The notes under the pieces were generated by a model, which saw only the letters and a list, made by a program, of their open reading frames with translations, was not told where the DNA came from and did not search any database. A stretch of 63,600 nucleotides of DNA from a virus. The DNA lies in the IMG/VR virus record IMGVR_UViG_3300011430_000011, positions 1 through 63,600 of that record, one strand, 5' to 3'. This document shows, in pieces, positions 3,379-63,306 of the stretch (the first letter of the stretch is position 1; each line of letters opens with the position of its first letter). A program made the position numbers and the translations under genes.

Positions 3379-3459
3379 GATGCGGCGCAGGGCTAGCCAG
3401 CAAGCCCGGAGAGGCGACAGAGCCGTGCAAGGGTAGCCAGGCTACCCTGACGCCGCATC
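3379..3459 (+). ncRNA. cloverleaf-like structured RNA
   Basis: A 9-bp closing stem (GATGCGGCG 3379-3387 with CGCCGCATC 3451-3459) encloses a hairpin GGGCT/AGCCC (3390-3407), a weak GGC/GCC arm (3413-3424) and a perfect 9-bp hairpin (AGGGTAGCC 3430-3438 with GGCTACCCT 3440-3448). The overall shape recalls a tRNA, but it lacks a T-loop sequence, an obvious anticodon arm and an intact D-arm, so I do not call it a tRNA. It is probably a structured leader or phage small RNA. Confidence 0.5.
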
Positions 3460-3460
3460 C

Positions 3461-3480
3461 AAACCGCTACAAACCGCTAC
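3461..3480 (+). repeat. 10-base tandem repeat before a ribosome site
   Basis: AAACCGCTAC is repeated twice back to back, followed by AAACAAAGGAG. It lies directly between the structured RNA and the ribosome site of the gene at 3501; possible protein- or RNA-binding spacer. Confidence 0.6.
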
Positions 3481-3500
3481 AAACAAAGGAGTGATTGTCT

Positions 3501-3686
3501 ATGCACACTTCGATCACCACCGAAAGAATCATCGAAGCTGTGAATGAAGACGACAGTCTCGGCTTCTGCACTGCGTGTGGTGAGGAAGCGTACAATGTCG
3601 AGCCAGATGCAAGGAAGTACGAGTGTGAGAGTTGCGGAGCAGAAAAGGTCTACGGAGCAGAGGAACTGCTCCTGATGTTGGTCTGA
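3501..3686 (+). CDS. zinc-ribbon protein (61 aa)
   Basis: Begins MHTSITTERIIEAV and contains CTAC (residues about 22-25) and CESC (about 42-45), a classic pair of CxxC knuckles for one zinc ion. Probably a nucleic-acid- or protein-binding adaptor; target unknown. Start ATG 3501 rather than the in-frame TTG at 3495, because AAAGGAG is correctly spaced for it. The stop overlaps the next ATG. Confidence 0.75.
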   Translation: MHTSITTERIIEAVNEDDSLGFCTACGEEAYNVEPDARKYECESCGAEKVYGAEELLLMLV

Positions 3687-19945: not shown

Positions 19946-22747
19946 GTGGCGACTCGTCAAGCACACCTAAAGTTGCTCGCTCCGTACTTGATTGGAGAGC
20001 AGCCGAGGGAAAACGGAGAGTGGGATATGTTCTGTCCTACTCATGTGGATACCAGACGAAGTGCCTCATTGAACATCGAGTCTAGTGAGTGGGTCTGTTT
20101 CGGAGGGTGTATTGGAGGGTCAGTTGTAGAGCTGATACAGAAGAAGGATGAATGGGTACCTCCTCCGGGAACCGCAGGATGGAATGGAGCTAGTAGAGGG
20201 AAGCCACGAGGAAGGGTACAAGAGCTACCAAGCGAGGCCACGATGCAAGGGTGGACCCATTCTTTGCTGGGCAGCAGCGAAAGACTAGATTGGTTGATAG
20301 AGCAGCGGATGCTGATGACTGACACCATCGTTCAGTTCGGGATTGGGTGGGATAGAGACAAACGTCTCTACACCATTCCTGTACGTGATGTCTCAGGTGT
20401 GCTTGTGAACATAAGACTGTACGATCCTAACCCGAAGGATCTCAGACGTAAGATATGGGGATATACCGGACATAACGAGACTAGATTGTTTCCGGTTAGT
20501 TCACTGGATCACAACGAACTACTTTGGCTAGAGGGTGAGTGGGATACTCTATTAGCCATCCAGCTAGGCTACAATGCGATCACCAGAACGGGCGCTGCCA
20601 CATCTTGGCAGAATCAATGGAACCCTCTCTTCAAGGGTAAGAGAGTTTCTATCTGTCAAGATCGTGACACCGATGGAGTTAAAGGTGCTCGTAAAGTTCA
20701 GTACTCCATCTCTTCAATAGCCGCCGACGTAAGACAACTTGTGTTGCCTTACGATGTCGCACCGAAAGCTGGGAAGGACTTCACAGACTTCATACGTGAG
20801 CACGGCGAAAAGGAATTTGCAGAGCTATTCAATAAAACCTGGGAGCAGCAAGAGGAGAGCTTACTTCCTGTCTCAGAAGAACCGATCACAGTAATAGACA
20901 GCTTCGATGCTCGTAGAGTTGGCGAACAAGCGACTCTACTTGTCACGATTAAGGGTAAGAAAGAACCTGGTTACACATTGCCCCAACGTGTGCATCTATT
21001 CTGTGATCAGCTGGCAGGAGACAAATGTACGGCTTGCACTCTTAATGGAGCTGCTGGTGACGATGAATTCGATATTGATCCTAGTGATCCTATGGTGCTT
21101 GAGCTTGTAGACAGCTCGCATCAGCAAGTCACCGCAACAATAGCTAGAGCTTACGGTATTCCTGGAGGTAAGTGCAACAGACTCCATGTAGAAGCCACCG
21201 GGCATCAGGCAGTAGAGATACTTTTCGCTCGACCAAGCATTGACCACGCTCAGGGTTGGGATGTGAATCGCACCGGCTCAAACTACACCAACATCAGGAT
21301 TACATCAGTTGGTCGACACAACACGATGCCTAACACCACAGTCAGAGCTAAGGGCGCACTCTATCCTAGTCCTCGCTCTCAATCTAACGAGTGGTTGGCT
21401 CACGAGGTTGACCAGCAAGCCACGAGTGTTGATCACTTCGAGATAACTGATGACACTGTTAAGCTGATGAAGAGATTTCAACCAAAGAAGGGACAACGGC
21501 CACTCTCTAAGCTAGCAGAGATAGAACGTGAGCTAGCTAGACACGTCACTAAGATCTATGGTCGTCCTGAGATGCACGCTCTGATTGATCTTACCTTTCA
21601 TTCGGTCCTTAGTTGGCACTTCGGTGGAGAACTCGAACATAGGGGATGGCTTGAGTGTCTCGTCTTAGGAGATACTAGGACAGGGAAGTCAGCGGTGGCA
21701 TCTAAGTTGGTTCGTCACTTTGGAGTAGGTGAGGTTGTCGGCGGAGAATCAGCTTCGGTGGCAGGACTTCTTGGAGGCTTGCAGTCTTTCGGGCAAGGTA
21801 AAGAGTGGACTGTTACCTGGGGTGTGATGCCTCAGAATAATCGTAGGCTAGTTGTCATAGACGAAGCGAGTGGTCTTTCCAAGGACGAGATAGCCAAACT
21901 TTCTGACGCTCGCTCTAGTGGTGTGGTCAACATCAGGAAGATTCAGAGTGACGTTGCTGAGGCAATGACTCGGCTTCTCTGGTTGAGTAACCCTCGCGAC
22001 GCCAAGATGGCAGACTTCACCTACGGAATTCAGGCCATCTTCGAACTAATCGGAAAGAATGAAGATATAGCTCGCTTCGATCTGGTGATGTGTGTATCAG
22101 TAGCCGACGTGCCTGCCGAGAAAATGAACCGTCCTGATGAACCAGGTGAGCTGCTCTATACCTCAGAAGCCTGCAATACTCTTGTCAGGTGGGTATGGAC
22201 TAGAGGACCTGATAAAGTTATCTGGGCACCTGGTGCTGAGGATGCAATCTACAAGGCTGCTCTCGAGATGGGGAAGCGCTATGTAGAGGAACCTCCGCTT
22301 GTTCAGCCAGCTAATGTAAGAATGAAGATAGGTCGCCTGGCGATCGCACTGGCAGCGCGCTTGTTCTCAACTGATAAGACCTACGAGAATGTATTGGTCA
22401 AGCCAGAGCATGTCATAGACGCTGTGGCATTCATGGACAAGATCTACGGTATGAAAGCGATGGGATATTCTGAGCGTAGCAAAGAAATAATAGGTGACAG
22501 AGAGCTCGCTAAGAAGAACTATGGTGACGTCAAGATCTATCTACACAGTAAACCAGGACTAGCCAAATTCTTGAAGGTAACTGGCTCGTTCAGGAGACAG
22601 GACATTGAAGAAGTCCTTAACATAGACAGAGCCTCGGCCAATGGAGTTGTGAACAAGCTCCTGAACTCGAGGATGGTCAGAAAGGCAGGGGCAGACATCA
22701 AAGTTGAACCTACGCTCCATGAACTACTTCGTACATTCCGCGGATAA
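19946..22747 (+). CDS. primase-helicase: CHC2/TOPRIM primase fused to MCM-like AAA+
   Basis: 933 residues from GTG 19946. A CHC2-type zinc finger (C30, H33, C51, C55) is followed by a TOPRIM domain (LEGEWD about 196, DRDTDG about 240). The middle (about 300-450) has four Cys (LFC, DKC, TAC, GGKC) in a strand-rich stretch. The motor has Walker A GDTRTGKS (about 575), Walker B VVIDEAS (about 637), a sensor-1 LSNPR (about 683) and DIARFDLVM (about 706). Together these match MCM helicases, not DnaB/gp4. A helical winged-helix-like end follows (about 860-925). Unwinds and primes the phage genome; the fusion is the most unusual replication protein here. Confidence 0.85.
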   Translation: MATRQAHLKLLAPYLIGEQPRENGEWDMFCPTHVDTRRSASLNIESSEWVCFGGCIGGSVVELIQKKDEWVPPPGTAGWNGASRGKPRGRVQELPSEATMQGWTHSLLGSSERLDWLIEQRMLMTDTIVQFGIGWDRDKRLYTIPVRDVSGVLVNIRLYDPNPKDLRRKIWGYTGHNETRLFPVSSLDHNELLWLEGEWDTLLAIQLGYNAITRTGAATSWQNQWNPLFKGKRVSICQDRDTDGVKGARKVQYSISSIAADVRQLVLPYDVAPKAGKDFTDFIREHGEKEFAELFNKTWEQQEESLLPVSEEPITVIDSFDARRVGEQATLLVTIKGKKEPGYTLPQRVHLFCDQLAGDKCTACTLNGAAGDDEFDIDPSDPMVLELVDSSHQQVTATIARAYGIPGGKCNRLHVEATGHQAVEILFARPSIDHAQGWDVNRTGSNYTNIRITSVGRHNTMPNTTVRAKGALYPSPRSQSNEWLAHEVDQQATSVDHFEITDDTVKLMKRFQPKKGQRPLSKLAEIERELARHVTKIYGRPEMHALIDLTFHSVLSWHFGGELEHRGWLECLVLGDTRTGKSAVASKLVRHFGVGEVVGGESASVAGLLGGLQSFGQGKEWTVTWGVMPQNNRRLVVIDEASGLSKDEIAKLSDARSSGVVNIRKIQSDVAEAMTRLLWLSNPRDAKMADFTYGIQAIFELIGKNEDIARFDLVMCVSVADVPAEKMNRPDEPGELLYTSEACNTLVRWVWTRGPDKVIWAPGAEDAIYKAALEMGKRYVEEPPLVQPANVRMKIGRLAIALAARLFSTDKTYENVLVKPEHVIDAVAFMDKIYGMKAMGYSERSKEIIGDRELAKKNYGDVKIYLHSKPGLAKFLKVTGSFRRQDIEEVLNIDRASANGVVNKLLNSRMVRKAGADIKVEPTLHELLRTFRG

Positions 22748-22978: not shown

Positions 22979-23250
22979 TTGGGGCCAAGGAAATAGAAAC
23001 TGCGGAGAGGCTCCTGAGGATAGTCGTCGGCGACGGCATGGATGTGCAGGGACAGTTCAAGCACTACAGAGTGGACCGAATTGCGTACGACAAGTTCCAC
23101 CAAGAGATGATGTCGATTGTTATCAGGAGGGCTCAGCAAACCAGAGTACCAGTTCACGGAGAACTGGTACCTATTCTCAATACCATCATCGCCCATCACT
23201 TCTTGGTTGGTGTAGTCTGCGGCATACAAGAGAGCAAGGTACATCTATGA
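22975..23250 (+). CDS. hypothetical helical protein (91 aa)
   Basis: MIGAKEIETAERLLRIVVGD..., helix rich (DKFHQEMMSIVIRRAQQTRV; LNTIIAHHFLVGVVCGIQE). ATGA overlap upstream and overlap with the next ATG. No family recognised. Confidence 0.65.
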   Translation: MIGAKEIETAERLLRIVVGDGMDVQGQFKHYRVDRIAYDKFHQEMMSIVIRRAQQTRVPVHGELVPILNTIIAHHFLVGVVCGIQESKVHL

Positions 23251-24077
23251 GCAAGGTAGCGATACTCGGTGCAGGACCTTCAGGACTGCTCGCTGCCTAC
23301 GCGGTTGAACGATCGGGTCACGAGCCTGTCATCATCAGCAATGGTCATGGAGCTACTGTCGACAGAAGTATGTTCCTGATGGATAAGATTCCTGGTCTCA
23401 ACTCTCACAACGAGGATTTCGCTCTCGAGGTTGAAGTCAGAGGTACTGCCGAGGGGTACGCACGTCGTGTCTACCGAGACCCTACTGCTCCTGTCTCATT
23501 AGATACCTTTGCCGCTGGGAGTTACATAGTCTGGGGACTACAGGAGACGTACGCAAAGCTCTGGAATATGTACGGAAGTTCTGCTGAGAGACGTAGTGTT
23601 ACTCCCTACGACATCGCAGAGCTTCTCAGTAACTACGAACTTGTGATAAGCACTCTCTACTCACCAGAATTGTGCATCGATGCAGATCATAAGTTCGATA
23701 AGGTAGACACATTCATCGCTCAGCAAGTTGTAACTGAAGAGCCAGACCGCATCTCAACGATGATTTACAACGGCTCTGATGAATGGCAAGAAGGGGTAGC
23801 ACAAACTGCAATCTGGAACTGGTATCGATACTCAGCAATACGGGGTGTAGAAACTTGGGAGTACACACATCTAATTCCTGGGCAGATGAGTATCGGAAAG
23901 AAGCCCATCAGCAACACCTGCGACTGCTGGCAGAGAGCTCCTTCATCTTTTGATAGACCGCAGCAGTTGCACAGAGTTGGCCGATTTGCAAAATGGGAGC
24001 GTGGTGTGATGAACCATCATGCATTCCAGGATACAGTGGCAATCCTCTCAACAGAAGGGATGGGTAGATCAGTATGA
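23247..24077 (+). CDS. FAD-dependent oxidoreductase-like protein
   Basis: 276 residues. The N-terminus VAILGAGPSGLLAAYAVERS is a canonical FAD/NAD Rossmann motif (G-x-G-x-x-G then an acidic/His switch). The rest is shorter than typical oxidoreductases and has a Tyr/Trp-rich end with CDCWQR. It is the first of the nucleotide-metabolism set, so it may act on a nucleotide or flavin, possibly partnering ThyX (30109), which needs FAD. Substrate unknown. Confidence 0.7.
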   Translation: MSKVAILGAGPSGLLAAYAVERSGHEPVIISNGHGATVDRSMFLMDKIPGLNSHNEDFALEVEVRGTAEGYARRVYRDPTAPVSLDTFAAGSYIVWGLQETYAKLWNMYGSSAERRSVTPYDIAELLSNYELVISTLYSPELCIDADHKFDKVDTFIAQQVVTEEPDRISTMIYNGSDEWQEGVAQTAIWNWYRYSAIRGVETWEYTHLIPGQMSIGKKPISNTCDCWQRAPSSFDRPQQLHRVGRFAKWERGVMNHHAFQDTVAILSTEGMGRSV

Positions 24078-24631
24078 GTCCTATGCCCGGATCATTCAGC
24101 GCCTATCTGGCAGCACCCATCTTCGACCAGCATCAACTGGCTGTTGTCGATAGGTTGTACCAAGAGTTACAACTCAGGGACTTCAATGTGTTCAGTCCGT
24201 ATCACGCCAGCCAAGATATCTTCAGAGGTCGTCCTCCGTCAGAATGTACAGCAGAAGAAAGAGCTCTAGTCATTCAAGGGAATATCTCTAACCTGCACTG
24301 CTGGCTGCTGCTTGCATGGGTGGGTGGATATGAAGCAGGCTTCACTGACCCAGGGGTAATATGGGAGATGGGCTATGCAGCCGCACTCAGCGGCGCACCA
24401 GCCGCTTGGAACAACTCTCCCCTCCGACCGCTTACCCTGGCTTACATCGATGAGTCTGACAAGCGACAGAGCATGAATCTGATGCTGTCTGCGACAGTCG
24501 ATGTGGTAGTGAAGGGGATTGCTGATCTTAGAATTGCTCTTCAACTTGCCCGTCTTTGTAAGTACGAAGCTCTAAGGGAGAGATACCATCCGAGAAAAGT
24601 TCTCGGGGGCGAAATGGAGCCAGTTGTATGA
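24074..24631 (+). CDS. nucleoside 2-deoxyribosyltransferase-like protein
   Basis: 185 residues. The N-terminus FSAYLAAPIFDQHQLAVVDR (strand plus acid loop) and GVIWEMGYAAALSGAP (the Glu of the GxxxExGxA motif) match the nucleoside deoxyribosyltransferase fold. Family enzymes swap bases on deoxyribonucleosides or cleave them. Next to MazG-like and HD enzymes it probably edits the dNTP pool. Coupled to neighbours by overlaps. Confidence 0.7.
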   Translation: MSPMPGSFSAYLAAPIFDQHQLAVVDRLYQELQLRDFNVFSPYHASQDIFRGRPPSECTAEERALVIQGNISNLHCWLLLAWVGGYEAGFTDPGVIWEMGYAAALSGAPAAWNNSPLRPLTLAYIDESDKRQSMNLMLSATVDVVVKGIADLRIALQLARLCKYEALRERYHPRKVLGGEMEPVV

Positions 24632-24999
24632 ACGAGGGCATTGACATCGAGATTGACGTTCTTTGCGCTCAGGCATATACGAGATCTGAACGAAACGGTT
24701 TCTGGAAACAATTTCCTGATCGCTTCCAAGACGAGCGTGCATGGATTGGAGAGAAGATAGCACTTGCCCACACAGAGCTCAGTGAGGCAATCGATGCTTC
24801 TCGTAAGACTGGAGATGATGCTGCCAGGTACACCTTCATTCTCAAAGAGCTTGGTGACACGATCTGGCGATGTCTCGATATGGCCTACGTCATTCACCAG
24901 TTCAACAATCTTCCGGTTGAGGTCACACTCGGAAAGTTGATGAAGGAACAAGCCGAGAATATGCCCAATCGCGGAGTTCTACACGGAAAGCGGTGGTGA
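24628..24999 (+). CDS. MazG-like nucleotide pyrophosphohydrolase
   Basis: 123 residues. EKIALAHTELSEAIDASRKT (the E-x-x-E metal site, about residues 45-60) and KELGDTIWRCLDMAYV (E-x-x-D) match the all-alpha NTP pyrophosphatase superfamily. Probably hydrolyses unwanted (d)NTPs to monophosphates during phage growth. Ends one base before the next ATG. Confidence 0.75.
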   Translation: MNEGIDIEIDVLCAQAYTRSERNGFWKQFPDRFQDERAWIGEKIALAHTELSEAIDASRKTGDDAARYTFILKELGDTIWRCLDMAYVIHQFNNLPVEVTLGKLMKEQAENMPNRGVLHGKRW

Positions 25000-25000
25000 G

Positions 25001-25705
25001 ATGAACCTGTTTGAAGCACTTAACGGGAATGTGCGAAGGCTTCGGCACATCAACAGGTACTCAAGCTATCCGTGTATCAAGCCGGAGTCTGTGGCAGAGC
25101 ACTCTTTTCAAGTTGCCTTCATCTCTTTCCTAATAGGGGAAGATCTGTCTCTTGCTCACAACGAGGACATCAACTTCGCCGTACTTCTAGGCAAAGCTCT
25201 GATGCACGACGTTAGCGAATGTATGTCCGGAGATATCATTCGTACTTACAAGTACAGCTCTGAAGAGATGCGCCTCCAGTGTGAGGCAGCAGACGAGCAG
25301 AATATGGGCATTCTCATGGAAGATTTCCACAACATTGGACCATCTGTATATCACGAATGGAAGCACGCCAAGTCTGCAAACATTGAGGGCGATATTGTCC
25401 GTTTTGCAGATCTTGTAGCGGTCGTAATCTACTGCGCTGAGGAGTGGCATCTCGGCAACCGACAGCTTGATGCAACTCTCGAGCGGTGCTACCGCAACAG
25501 CATCCACCAGTATCACAATCATCCTCTCTTTGAGAAGTACGCCGATCAGATGTTTCCGAGCAGGAGTTTGTTGGCTTGGCGAGAGGCATACCGTCTTGAT
25601 ACGACCTACGGGAACGAGCACGATGTGCATCTAGGTGTGCCAGCAAGAGATCTGGCTCTTCGCATGAAAGGTATGATGGATCCTCACTCTGAAGGTCCAA
25701 CATGA
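25001..25705 (+). CDS. HD-domain 5'-deoxynucleotidase-like protein (YfbR/DatZ type)
   Basis: 234 residues. LRHINRYSSYPCIKPESVAEHSFQVAFI-type N-terminus (the HIN motif and AEHS), then ALMHDVSECMSGDI as the HD pair, and DIVRFADLVAVVIYCAEEW with the last metal-binding Asp. Same superfamily as the dNMP phosphatase YfbR and the phage dATP hydrolase DatZ. Which substrate applies cannot be told from sequence. With the MazG-like gene it forms a pool-cleaning pair. Confidence 0.75.
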   Translation: MNLFEALNGNVRRLRHINRYSSYPCIKPESVAEHSFQVAFISFLIGEDLSLAHNEDINFAVLLGKALMHDVSECMSGDIIRTYKYSSEEMRLQCEAADEQNMGILMEDFHNIGPSVYHEWKHAKSANIEGDIVRFADLVAVVIYCAEEWHLGNRQLDATLERCYRNSIHQYHNHPLFEKYADQMFPSRSLLAWREAYRLDTTYGNEHDVHLGVPARDLALRMKGMMDPHSEGPT

Positions 25706-58203: not shown

Positions 58204-59760
58204 TCACATGACCATGTCTAGAAGGTCACCGGCGATTGAATTGTTCTTTTTCTTTCCTCCGAGCTTGTGCTCGTCTTCCTTGATTGAACCACGCTTGACG
58301 ATGCTAAGGACACAAGCGTCAGCACGGTCTGGGGACGGCAATCCCCTATCCCTCATGTCGTCCTTACTCTCGATCACAATCTGCCCGGCGTCGTTCTCCC
58401 ACCACTTGATGGAGCCTAGCTGATTGATCAGAAGCTCGTCATCAGGGTCTAGATCGATCAAACCGTCATCCATCAGCACTCTGAAGGTCCAATAGATCTC
58501 TGCGCGACGATTGCGGAATCGCTTCGCATTTCTAGGCTTCTCAGAACCGTAAATCGCTCTGACATTAAGCCCTCGGTGCTTGAGCTTGTCGAAAACACCA
58601 GCACCTACGCCAATGGCGTCGATATTGGCTGCGAGCTTCTTAGCACCATGACTTCTAAGAATCTTCTCGATTCTATCAGCACTTTCTTCAGTATCGAGCT
58701 TTGCCCAGTCATCTTCAAGTCTGATATGGAAGCCACGATTTCGATAGACCACGCTGCGATCTGTGCCGAATCGAGCGATGTCTACACCATACTGGCCAGG
58801 CTCGAGGCCCGGCTGCTGGCAAGCAATCGCCTTCTTGATCATTCTAGGACTGAGTAGAGTATCATCGGTGACCTCTGGAAATTCAGCCTCGATCTTTCCT
58901 TGCCAGCTAGGAGAGCCAATCCCCCAGTCCTTAGCACGATCTTTGACCCAGTTAGGGGATATTAGTTCCTTACTGATGTCTTCAGGAACTGATTCCTCTG
59001 GTCCTATGCGTACTCGCTCGAAGAGCTCGCAGACAGCCTGGGTGAAGTTCGGAGTGCACCAGGCCGGAATTGTGATGACATTCCATCCTGATCCTGGCTT
59101 ACACACTTCAGCGAAGTGTGAACTGGGGTCTTCAGGGTTTCCGATAGCGATTACACGACTGTCGTCGTTGGTGGTAATTGACAAGATTGCATCGAAGAGT
59201 TGTTTGGGAACTCCGTTAGCCTCGTCGATCACCCCGAGCACATAGCGTGCGTGGATTCCCTGAAGAGAGTCTTCATCGTAATCAGCAGGCTTCCGACCCA
59301 TAGCAATGAGTTCCTCAGTGCTATCTCCGATCTTCCGTTTAGCGTGAGCTTCTGCCATGTGCCACTGACAATCTCCCGCGATACGACCTGGCAGCTTACC
59401 CTTCGAGTGAACCCTCTTGAGGTAGCGCCACAGGATCGCTTCAATCTGTGGCCAGCTGGGCGCGGTAGTGAGTGAGAATGCACTGCCCAGCTTGTGTACT
59501 CGCGGATCCATCCACCAACCAATTGCGCGACTGACGATAAAGCTCTTCCCGCTCGCGTGGCAGCTCTTGACTGCTGTTTGCTTATGATCTCTGATGGACT
59601 CTATGACCTCGAGCTGTTTCGACCAGATGAACTCTCCGAGGACATCTTCCATCCACATCTTTGGATTCTCGAGGTACATACTAGAGCGCGGATAGAGCCT
59701 ATCAGCAGCATTCTGCCCTGTTCCCGGTGGAAGACCTGGGCGGGAAGTTATGACTGACAT
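58204..59760 (-). CDS. terL: terminase large subunit
   Basis: 518 residues. Walker A SCHASGKS (66-73), Walker B VLGVIDEANG (about 172-180) and GVDIARFGTDRS (about 320), the first Asp of the RNase-H-like nuclease, with a later VRAIYGSEKPRNAKRFRNRR and DADADE-type acidic end. ATPase motor and nuclease that packages DNA. Starts just inside the HTH gene end. Confidence 0.93.
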   Translation of the reverse strand: MSVITSRPGLPPGTGQNAADRLYPRSSMYLENPKMWMEDVLGEFIWSKQLEVIESIRDHKQTAVKSCHASGKSFIVSRAIGWWMDPRVHKLGSAFSLTTAPSWPQIEAILWRYLKRVHSKGKLPGRIAGDCQWHMAEAHAKRKIGDSTEELIAMGRKPADYDEDSLQGIHARYVLGVIDEANGVPKQLFDAILSITTNDDSRVIAIGNPEDPSSHFAEVCKPGSGWNVITIPAWCTPNFTQAVCELFERVRIGPEESVPEDISKELISPNWVKDRAKDWGIGSPSWQGKIEAEFPEVTDDTLLSPRMIKKAIACQQPGLEPGQYGVDIARFGTDRSVVYRNRGFHIRLEDDWAKLDTEESADRIEKILRSHGAKKLAANIDAIGVGAGVFDKLKHRGLNVRAIYGSEKPRNAKRFRNRRAEIYWTFRVLMDDGLIDLDPDDELLINQLGSIKWWENDAGQIVIESKDDMRDRGLPSPDRADACVLSIVKRGSIKEDEHKLGGKKKNNSIAGDLLDMVM

Positions 59761-60824: not shown

Positions 60825-60992
60825 CTAGCGTGCGCCAGCCCGCTGTCTGAGCTGTTTGCGCTTGGTCATGTGGTAGAACCCGCAATACATGCAGAGGTAT
60901 AGTCCGCGGTACACACCTGGCTTGAGGTCTCCTGCTGCTTTACCGGCGTCGAGGTACTTCTTCTTCCCGGTCTTTTCGCATCGCTTAGCCAT
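60825..60992 (-). CDS. small zinc-knuckle basic protein (55 aa)
   Basis: MAKRCEKTGKKKYLDAGKAA then GVYRGLYLCMYCGFYHMTKR. CEK and CMYC with surrounding Lys/Arg make a possible one-zinc ribbon. Overlaps the small terminase end; probably a nucleic-acid binder. Confidence 0.6.
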   Translation of the reverse strand: MAKRCEKTGKKKYLDAGKAAGDLKPGVYRGLYLCMYCGFYHMTKRKQLRQRAGAR

Positions 60993-61959
60993 GCTCGATG
61001 ACTGGTAGACTCGGGTCGCCGAGTTGTGGCTGGGTGTTGTCGAGCATCATCAACTTCTGTGGTACGATGATCGCTGCCTGATCACGGAGCTTGTTGCGTA
61101 GGGTCTGTGGAATATTCGGGTTGTCCCAGATTAGGGTTGTTAGGATGCCCTCCACAAGTCTACTGATTAGTTCTCCGTACATCTCGGCAGCTCGCACTAG
61201 ACGTTCATTCAGCCCGACATCGAGCGCCATCTTGGCGTGCTTCGCTAGCCGCTCTTGAGCCTGCTCGTACTTCTTGGCAGCGAGCACGAGCTGCTGCCCC
61301 ATGATGGTCTCTTCGGCGTACCACGGGTTGTCGTCTGTATTTGTAACGGTAGCCGTTTTACTCTTACCGTTGGTCTGTTCGTGGATTGTCTGCAAGCGCA
61401 CAACCTCTTGACGCCAATAAAGTGTGTCTCCTGCCGACATCCGTATCAGCCACAAGAGCGCATTTAACGGGTCGATCTCGAATTCTGCTCCTAGTAGTCG
61501 GTTCAGCTCGTCGTTCCAACTCTTTCTGAGGTGCGTCGGAGCATTTCCCCCATGGTATTTGCACCGTCCTGTTCCGGGGTGAGGCGTTCCCCACCCTGGC
61601 GGCATACCGCAAGCTCCGCCTCCGTTCTTTGCCCTCTTCTTGGCCCCACAGATTTCACCTACCATTCTCGCTGCTCCCTTCGGCTTTCTTACTTCATAGA
61701 ATGTTGGGCGATTCTCCATGCTTTCAGGATTGTCCGGGTCCTTCCAGCGTTCTGGTCCGTATGGCCCGTTTTCTTTCGTGCTCTTTTTCTTGATTTTGAT
61801 GCTGGGGAGAGTCCTGGTTTTTGGCCGCGAGGCTTTTATTCTTTCACGTTTGCGGTTCTTTCGATTGTTTCGTAGAGCGTTATCCGATTTTGTTAGATTT
61901 TCTTGTTGTTCCTTTGTTGGATTTTTAATTTTCTGTCCGGGACCGAGGCTGTTGGGCAT
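60985..61959 (-). CDS. probable terminase small subunit / packaging protein
   Basis: 324 residues from ATG 61959 (GGGAGCAAGACA upstream), preferred over an upstream in-frame start. Basic N-terminal 90 residues. Then ICGAKKRAKNGGGACGMPPG, a cysteine turn W-TPHPGTGRCKYHGG, then a helical body (GTLYWRQEVVRLQ-like; ERLVRAAEMYGELISRLVEG). The C-GxP-G-x-C-HGG motif is known from small-terminase-like phage proteins. Begins the structural arm, upstream of terL. Confidence 0.6.
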   Translation of the reverse strand: MPNSLGPGQKIKNPTKEQQENLTKSDNALRNNRKNRKRERIKASRPKTRTLPSIKIKKKSTKENGPYGPERWKDPDNPESMENRPTFYEVRKPKGAARMVGEICGAKKRAKNGGGACGMPPGWGTPHPGTGRCKYHGGNAPTHLRKSWNDELNRLLGAEFEIDPLNALLWLIRMSAGDTLYWRQEVVRLQTIHEQTNGKSKTATVTNTDDNPWYAEETIMGQQLVLAAKKYEQAQERLAKHAKMALDVGLNERLVRAAEMYGELISRLVEGILTTLIWDNPNIPQTLRNKLRDQAAIIVPQKLMMLDNTQPQLGDPSLPVIEHG

Positions 61960-62000
61960 TGTCTTGCTCCCTTCTCTTCGTAACAGGGTACTGTAGCTCA

Positions 62001-62028
62001 TCTATATTGATGTGCAAAATGCGAGTAA
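62001..62028 (-). promoter_or_regulatory. possible late-arm promoter
   Basis: On the - strand TTACTC (62028-62023) and TATAGA (62006-62001) are 16 bases apart, a fair sigma-70-like pair 42 bases ahead of the ATG at 61959. The -35 box is weak and phage late promoters may look different. Confidence 0.3.
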
Positions 62029-62103
62029 TTTACCGAGAAGATAACAGAGCTCCAAAAGGATGGACGCGTGTCACACCGCAATAGGGGACCCTTCGCGTAT
62101 TTT

Positions 62104-62159
62104 CGTAGCCTAACTAGTAAACGTTTACTAGGCGGTAAACGTAGCCTAACTAGTAAACG
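62104..62159. repeat. 20-base direct repeats with central palindrome
   Basis: CGTAGCCTAACTAGTAAACG occurs at 62104-62123 and 62140-62159 (period 36). Inside the first, CTAGTAAACGTTTACTAG (62114-62131) is a perfect 18-base palindrome. These are iteron- or operator-like. Confidence 0.75.
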
Positions 62160-62365
62160 CGGCCGGTACCCCCTAAGGGTACCCGCAAACATCCTAGCCG
62201 GGGGTTCGAGGGTATACCGTAGAGCCCTACGTTTTCCCCGCTAATAGGGGCTTTTTACCGCCCCGTCGGGCTATACCCTCCCCCGGTATTCGGTCGGTAC
62301 CCCTTAGCCCGACGGGGCGTATACGAAGTTTACCGTTTAGGCTACGCCCGGCGGCCGTTTACCGC

Positions 62366-62393
62366 TTAGGCTACTAGTAGCCTAACTAGGCTA
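62366..62393. repeat. 20-bp perfect palindrome with related inverted repeat
   Basis: TTAGGCTACTAGTAGCCTAA (62366-62385) is perfectly palindromic. It overlaps TAGCCTA-AC-TAGGCTA (62378-62393), and GTAGCCTAACTAG (62377-62389) is a third copy of the start of the 20-base repeat. Possible protein-binding cluster. Confidence 0.7.
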
Positions 62394-62634
62394 CGGACCT
62401 TTACTACTTAGAAGTCGGTATAACCCCTTATACCCCCGGGGGGTAACCCCGCGGCTAAACTACCGGGGCGCGGCCGGAGTTACCTAACCGGCGGCGGCGG
62501 TAAGGGGTACCCGTAAGGGGTCCTAAAAATCCGGTCTAACTAAAGCGCGCTACGCGGCGGTCGCCCCCGCCTCCGGACTATAAGCCTAGCTACCCTAAGG
62601 GGACGGTATAACCTACCCCTAAGGAGGCACTAAG

Positions 62635-62853
62635 GTGCTAAGCTGCGACGCCGTAAGTAAGCCTACGGTACGCTACCTAAGACGGTACCGTAAAACAGCT
62701 ACGGCTAACGGCCCGGCGGGTAGTTCCTACCTAAGCCGGATCGTAAGCGGGGAGCGCTGCCTAAGTGAAGCCGTAGTAACTAAGACCATAAACGGCCATA
62801 CCGTAAGGCGCTGCCTAACCCACCTAAGTAGCTACGGGATCGGCCCGCAGTAA
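62635..62853 (+). CDS. small basic protein with TG-avoiding codons (72 aa)
   Basis: GTG start behind TAAGGAGG (62620-62627), 7 bases. MLSCDAVSKPTVRYLRRYRK then TATANGPAGSSYLSRIVSGE and a C-terminal RRCLTHLSSYGIGPQ. Basic, with three Cys; no family recognised. Every Leu is CTA except none CTG, and all Val are GTA, unlike other genes here, which mix CTC, CTG and GTC. Cysteine codons (TGC) account for most TG. Either a real gene with odd pressure or a relic. Confidence 0.55.
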   Translation: MLSCDAVSKPTVRYLRRYRKTATANGPAGSSYLSRIVSGERCLSEAVVTKTINGHTVRRCLTHLSSYGIGPQ

Positions 62854-62895
62854 GCGGACCGTCCCCTTAGGGTAGCGGGGCTAGCCTAAAGGGAC

Positions 62896-62925
62896 CTTTC
62901 GGGTAAGACATCACCCACCCGAAAG
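62896..62925 (+). promoter_or_regulatory. 9-bp hairpin in the leader of the 62939 gene
   Basis: CTTTCGGGT (62896-62904) pairs with ACCCGAAAG (62917-62925), 12-base loop, just ahead of AAAGGAGCC. The loop starts AAGACAT; the same GGGTAAGA sequence is found in the hairpin after the gene. Could hide the ribosome site or end the island transcript. Confidence 0.5.
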
Positions 62926-62938
62926 AAAGGAGCCAATC

Positions 62939-63211
62939 ATGGCCCTGAAGATGACTCCCAGCGAGGCTGCCGAGGTAAAGCAGACGAGCGGCACCTACAT
63001 CGAGGCGCAGTACCGCGCACCGATCGAGCAGGCACTCAAGGAGAAAGCCGACCTCAAGCACATCGAGCTCGACTTCCCTGCCGTCCGCCCAGCTCACGTT
63101 CACTTCAAGCTGAAGCGACTTCTCAGCGAGGAGGACGCAAAGCAGGTCCGCGTCGGCAAGCACGAGACTCACGGCGTCTGCCTCATCTACATGAATGGCA
63201 CCGGCAGCTAG
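62939..63211 (+). CDS. hypothetical protein (90 aa)
   Basis: MALKMTPSEAAEVKQTSGTY then EQALKEKADLKHIELDFPAV and VHFKLKRLLSEEDAKQVRVG. Helix-strand mix, Lys/Glu rich; ATG after AAAGGAGCCAATC. First ordinary gene of the + operon beyond the island. No family. Confidence 0.7.
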   Translation: MALKMTPSEAAEVKQTSGTYIEAQYRAPIEQALKEKADLKHIELDFPAVRPAHVHFKLKRLLSEEDAKQVRVGKHETHGVCLIYMNGTGS

Positions 63212-63223
63212 CGACTAGCAACA

Positions 63224-63253
63224 GGGTAAGATACCAACGACGGTGTCTTACCC
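63224..63253 (+). promoter_or_regulatory. 12-bp hairpin after the 62939 gene
   Basis: GGGTAAGATACC (63224-63235) and GGTGTCTTACCC (63242-63253) pair over 12 positions with one G-T, loop AACGAC. It follows the stop by 12 bases. No T-run follows; attenuator or 3' stabiliser. Confidence 0.5.
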
Positions 63254-63306
63254 GAAGGGTCCCAAAGCGAAAAGCGAACAAAGCTCTGCTTCGTGAGGAG
63301 CTCTGG

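Follow-up and report, generated by a model that had tools for sequence, protein, structure and literature searches.

A conserved island nearly free of TpG and CpA between the divergent gene arms of a phage and several of its relatives

What could banish TG and CA from less than one kilobase of a phage genome that otherwise uses them normally? The question arises in a 63,600-base virus record (hereafter the window, meaning the whole stretch of DNA analysed), in which a rightward early/replication arm, encoding a primase-MCM helicase, DNA polymerase III alpha, an SNF2 helicase, an exonuclease, Sak4 and a flavin-dependent thymidylate synthase (ThyX), diverges from a leftward structural arm with terminase, tape measure and further virion genes. 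The island lies in the noncoding space that separates these arms. On one side of it, the first structural-arm gene (60985-62001, minus strand) encodes a 338-aa protein assigned by family search to PHROG 3678, with the terminase (58204-59760, minus strand) farther along the same arm; on the other, the first gene of the early/replication arm (62939-63211, plus strand) encodes a 90-aa protein without a family match in this search. As the closest named relatives of the polymerase, at about 40% identity, belong to Streptomyces, Arthrobacter and Microbacterium phages, the host is likely actinobacterial.

Direct counting bore out the original observation that TG is missing from 62071-62635 (0 occurrences) and that CA is rare there (6 occurrences, four of them at the edges, at 62072, 62074, 62079 and 62628). 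The depletion remains significant after correction for base composition, with 2 TG and CA seen in 62085-62627 against 66.1 expected (Poisson P ~4e-26), and among 2000 shuffles of the 565 bases from 62071 to 62635 the lowest TG count was 17. In 200-base windows the TG/CA ratio reaches a minimum of 0.0 in the island, compared with a genome median of 1.16 (sd 0.21), and the lowest value anywhere else in the 63.6-kb genome is 0.53, in keeping with the earlier remark that no other part of the window looks like this. The extent first given, 62071-62890, was corrected in two respects: the clean zone starts abruptly only at 62085, and its right-hand part is relaxed. On the basis of the dinucleotide table, the sharp edges and the stops in six frames, we place the whole island at 62085-62890, with a strict core at 62085-62627 (TG 0; CA 2, at 62186 and 62190) and a relaxed, still TA-rich part at 62628-62890 (TG 5, CA 6), ordinary composition being back at about 62905. 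The longest run free of both dinucleotides spans 438 bases, and the island holds no open reading frame. The same sequence is carried at 99.97% identity by IMGVR_UViG_3300012175_000032, which rules out an assembly error in a single contig.

TA is indeed common in 62071-62890 (observed/expected 2.82) and the CC/GG runs are long, as had also been pointed out, but these features proved to be secondary. GA (0.37), TC (0.42) and AT (0.47) are scarce in the same interval, and a shuffle model forbidding only TG/CA left the shortfall of GA and TC unaccounted for (19 of each seen versus 63 and 53, respectively). When avoidance of both TG/CA and GA/TC was modelled, 94 TA were expected and 101 seen (z 1.3), with z values of 0.3 for CC and 1.5 for GG; the fitted penalties were 2.75 (TG/CA) and 1.48 (GA/TC) for the window island, and 7.8 and 2.3 for that of its relative G006. 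The TA excess and the CC/GG runs are thus by-products of strong TG/CA and moderate GA/TC avoidance, and the primary facts in the window are a strict avoidance of TG/CA and a moderate one of GA/TC.

The island opens with GGGACCCTTCGCGTA (62085-62099, plus strand), just as that of G006 opens with GGGGACCC. Its right edge, GGGACCTTTCGGGTAAGACA (62891-62910, plus strand), resembles the left edge at 62085 and has a 20-bp inverted copy (95%) at 63244-63263, so that this inverted repeat flanks the 90-aa early gene on both sides. Repeat searches identified two identical copies of the 20-base repeat CGTAGCCTAACTAGTAAACG, 36 bases apart from start to start (62104-62159, plus strand), a perfect 15-bp inverted repeat (62259-62273 with 62305-62319, together 62259-62319), and a 25-bp inverted repeat of 92% complementarity (62583-62607 with 62858-62882, together 62583-62882), while a perfect 18-bp palindrome, CTAGTAAACGTTTACTAG (62114-62131), was read directly. 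A terminator-like element, CCCC-GCTAATA-GGGG-C-TTTTT (62236-62256, plus strand), is too short for the terminator scan and was identified by reading; it is kept in G006 with an altered stem. No named phage or plasmid matched the island by blastn, and exact-pattern scans of viral and bacterial collections with two conserved island words gave, beyond known relatives, chance matches only.

We then asked whether relatives, all of them metagenome contigs, avoid TG at the same place, and several do. G006, whose terminase is 79% identical to that of the window phage, shows an island of this kind immediately 5' of the same gene; the contig ends within the island, and its final 269 bases are without TG or CA. 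The aligned part of the island comprises 255 bases, of which 96 differ between the window and G006, yet TG was gained in neither. Weaker noncoding islands are found at the same place in G012 (L111) and G013 (L117 with L114 and L115), where the TG and CA ratios are 0.14-0.46 and TA is 2.0-2.3. The contig of G005, a more distant relative, ends inside the island like that of G006; both breaks may be coincidental, may stem from a stretch that is hard to assemble, or may mark a physical end.

In the more distant relatives G002, G003, G005 and G007, which are syntenic with the window phage, the point where the arms diverge is occupied by a gene for a protein of 155-161 aa, 53-62% identical to the G003 protein. 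When the protein was kept and synonymous codons were resampled with each phage's own usage, 42, 38, 36 and 24 TG+CA were expected in the island genes of G002, G003, G007 and G005, whereas 1, 2, 1 and 3 are seen; the G005 gene is cut by the contig end, and with G003 usage its expectation is 27. In other genes of G002 and G003 the TG+CA ratio is about 1.05-1.09. Over 626 bp of G002 and 658 bp of G007, TG remains only in the ATG start and in a single conserved Trp codon; beyond those sites, one additional CA is present in G003 and two are present in G005. Codons for identical amino acids differ in 31-53% between the island genes, and therefore the ban has outlasted extensive synonymous divergence. 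The suggestion that the island is DNA from a genome of very different composition fails, since the ban persists across proteins only 53-62% identical in syntenic phages that are otherwise normal. Of the 74 codons that precede A in three island genes, none (0) ends in C, and G (28, 14 and 16) is far more frequent at the third position than T (5, 2 and 3), indicating that the sites are avoided by any route and not mutated to TA. TA is not raised in the coding islands and their GC content equals or exceeds that of the genome. Only TG/CA is avoided in this clade, not TC/GA, and in the noncoding flanks of the island genes a shuffle model forbidding TG/CA alone suffices. TG and CA disappear 80-125 bases 5' of the ATG and stay away until no more than 20 bases past the terminator, intrinsic terminators (those of G003 and G007 identified by eye) lying 0-20 bases before TG/CA reappears. 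In its coding form, the avoidance hence spans one unit, from 5' of the gene to just past the terminator, and the upstream part would be the site of the promoter. A second, weaker TG/CA-poor segment (0.26-0.38), noncoding, is located beside early genes in the same four genomes (G002:14381-14760, G003:33481-34000, G007:46221-46560 and G005:1001-1680).

Two close relatives, G004 and G010, possess the core genes and lack the island, their longest TG/CA-free runs being 56 and 57 bases. In G004 both arms point one way. G010 (L125 start, L128 end) is probably a complete circular assembly, because about 120 bases recur at its two ends. No gene was found that is common to all island-bearing genomes yet missing from G004 and G010.

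Taken together, the avoidance is conserved and under selection: it is confined to one region, affects both strands in noncoding and genic DNA, and is kept while the sequence diverges. Because TG and CA are avoided symmetrically, in coding and noncoding DNA alike and from upstream of the gene to the terminator, we infer that the responsible agent recognises this two-base step on the DNA duplex. Our preferred reading, to which we assign a probability of about 0.4, is that of an exempt zone: the first transcription unit lacks TG/CA and is left untouched by an undescribed, genome-wide, dinucleotide-specific mark or attack, and would thereby reveal an undiscovered modification or defence system. 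The region would hold the immediate-early unit and would escape an agent that recognises nothing but a dinucleotide. In a more specific form, which we put at roughly one chance in three, the island is a control region between the divergent arms, strongly selected on double-stranded DNA for the lack of TpG and CpA (and, in the window clade, for few TpC and GpA) and thus exempt from modification. The agent, encoded by phage or host, would most likely modify the T of TG, and to a smaller degree that of TC, or just as well the A of CA, and to a smaller degree that of GA; with the remainder of the genome modified in this way, it would leave the TG/CA-free region unmodified and transcribable by host RNA polymerase upon DNA entry.

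This form of the exempt-zone reading is suggested by phage thymidine hypermodification, as in M6, ViI and phiW-14, where the 5-hmdU DNA kinase acts at TG/TC with a strong preference for TG and a weaker one for TC (PMC6449724, PMC7653180). According to work cited in PMC7653180, E. coli RNA polymerase transcribes less when 5hmdU is phosphorylated, and the two points together suggest that the first unit is kept unmodifiable. The same order, TG over TC, is met in the window island, where it is a property of the avoidance and not proof of an enzyme; in the coding clade TC/GA is not avoided, which counts against modification. Moreover, homologues of the thymidine modification genes were not found in these phages. 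Pfam and NCBIfam scans of the early-arm proteins returned no known DNA-modification gene; dUMP hydroxymethylase, 5-hmdU DNA kinase and transferases were missing from these scans and from BLAST comparisons with M6 and phiW-14 proteins, in which M6 and two thirds of phiW-14 had no modification protein in common with these phages. PADLOC gave only SNF2-helicase and primase homologies among the 25 families listed for early-arm proteins. The lack of any gene that tracks the island against G004 and G010 likewise weighs against modification, as does the absence of a comparable island from the TS-modified phages phiW-14 and M6 in the parts scanned: the lowest TG/CA ratio in two thirds of phiW-14 is 0.77, and M6 falls to 0.18-0.4 in two short intergenic repeats. 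These TG/CA-poorest regions of M6 (L103:29560-29740 and 3450-3570) carry GGTAAGTAAGTTAAGTAAGTTAAG.

Other phage systems offer partial parallels. In phage CAjan, deazaguanine bases are introduced at the short motifs GA and GGC, which illustrates that phage modification can have a specificity of two to three bases, although the motif differs from TG/CA; the 50 kb of CAjan scanned contain no comparable island, and no Que/TGT (DpdA) genes were detected among the early-arm proteins scanned. Phage DNA that enters the cell early can be depleted of restriction sites regionally, an example being the first-step-transfer region of T5; as in the island, the avoidance is local and concerns a region presumed to be the first to act. 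However, T5 avoids sites of 4-6 bp, whereas the island excludes a whole dinucleotide, even inside codons. Our literature searches, of incomplete coverage, did not turn up a zone like this. When a single dinucleotide is banned strictly and locally on both strands, even within codons, and the ban is conserved, this is a strong fingerprint of an enzyme or protein that reads two bases, and finding the reader of TG/CA would expose either a phage modification with an exempt early zone or a host defence, neither of them described hitherto. Zones empty of one dinucleotide also make it possible to look for systems of this type with nothing more than sequence data.

Since no modification genes were found and M6 and phiW-14 are without such zones as scanned, an agent on the host side is a serious alternative, albeit one that we consider unlikely. 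A nuclease, restriction complex or silencer reading TG/CA would hit the incoming DNA, and the region entering or expressed first would have to be free of sites. The lineage-specific presence of the island, with no phage gene tracking it, and its nature as a self-contained unit at the arm divergence would fit such an attack. Nevertheless, the other 60 kb bear a normal TG/CA load that this model leaves unexplained, and the retained Trp TGG means that single sites are tolerated. To our knowledge, there is no defence enzyme with 2-bp specificity.

Alternatively, a DNA-binding protein of the phage, be it the helical island protein or a different one, might coat or silence the DNA through TG/CA sites, which its own unit would avoid, with motifs in the flanks as binding sites. 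The flanks are TG- or CA-rich on both sides and contain repeats: on the plus strand, L062:4200-4750, L068:4200-4830, L088:5300-5880 and L076:5300-5890 are TG-rich with repeated TTGAGTTG/ATGAGTTG-like words, become CA-rich nearing the island, and past the island gene the plus strand is CA-rich. The repeated words are possibly iterons or operators. The island protein was modelled at pLDDT 79 and predicted to be all-helical, which would suit DNA binding by self-exclusion; a Foldseek search of the model in PDB and viral models gave no match at E < 0.001, comparison with phrogs, pfam and PDB sequences nothing significant, and tblastn in named phages no hit. We consider such self-exclusion quite improbable, as a binding motif would exceed two bases and selection would purge the motif only, and as the window phage has an island without the island-protein gene, of which no degenerate copy was found there either.

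A constraint at the RNA level, by which a structured leader or other RNA must lack UG and CA, for instance against cleavage or mispairing, is a little harder still to credit. The window island folds better than its shuffles (z -3.2 and -2.8), its inverted repeats exceed the Markov expectation, and 12 of 57 consensus pairs are changed on both sides between the window and G006, although two sequences are too few to prove RNA structure. But the equal avoidance of UG and CA in the coding islands is not predicted by one RNA specificity, and the avoidance begins upstream of the gene and extends beyond the terminator. The island gave nothing at gathering score in an Rfam scan, a tRNA/tmRNA scan found no tRNA genes, and comparison with the VIPR repeat RNA (PMC13142463) found the window to be without GGY/NN repeats.

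It is very unlikely that the island is an origin without primase sites, in which TG or CA would belong to the start site of the phage primase and the zone would go unprimed on either strand. The position at the arm divergence and the strand-asymmetric flanks would suit this reading; a few priming sites in 0.6-0.8 kb, however, would cost little, which fits poorly with near-absolute exclusion, and the primase-helicase is also present, at about 50% identity, in the island-free G004 and G010. The island contains direct and inverted repeats, and the more general suggestion of a structural DNA element or origin may hold. In the window phage the primase-helicase, a Toprim primase fused to an MCM-type AAA+ helicase that is conserved across the phage family, is encoded at 19946-22747.

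Translation-silent DNA, proposed for the window island with its many stops and lack of start codons, is contradicted, as the island is a gene in four relatives and the avoidance there is as strong for CTG, a triplet not normally used to start translation, as for ATG, GTG and TTG (2 CTG seen, both Trp codons, versus 31 expected). The least probable of all is a mutation of CpA to TpA akin to fungal RIP, which leaves TA in place of CA and so resembles the window in its low TG/CA and high TA, but is contradicted by the G before A, the unraised TA and the high GC of the coding islands, and the TA gain of the window itself vanishes once TG/CA and GA/TC avoidance is modelled.

Elsewhere in the window phage, a gene cluster at 24074-25705 encodes nucleoside deoxyribosyltransferase-like, MazG-like (by reading) and HD dATP-hydrolase-like proteins and resembles a nucleotide-pool remodelling set; the Pfam scan contained no PurZ-type family. 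A gene at 23247-24077 encodes a protein with the N-terminal FAD/NAD-binding motif GAGPSGLLAAYA and is kept beside the primase gene in complete relatives.
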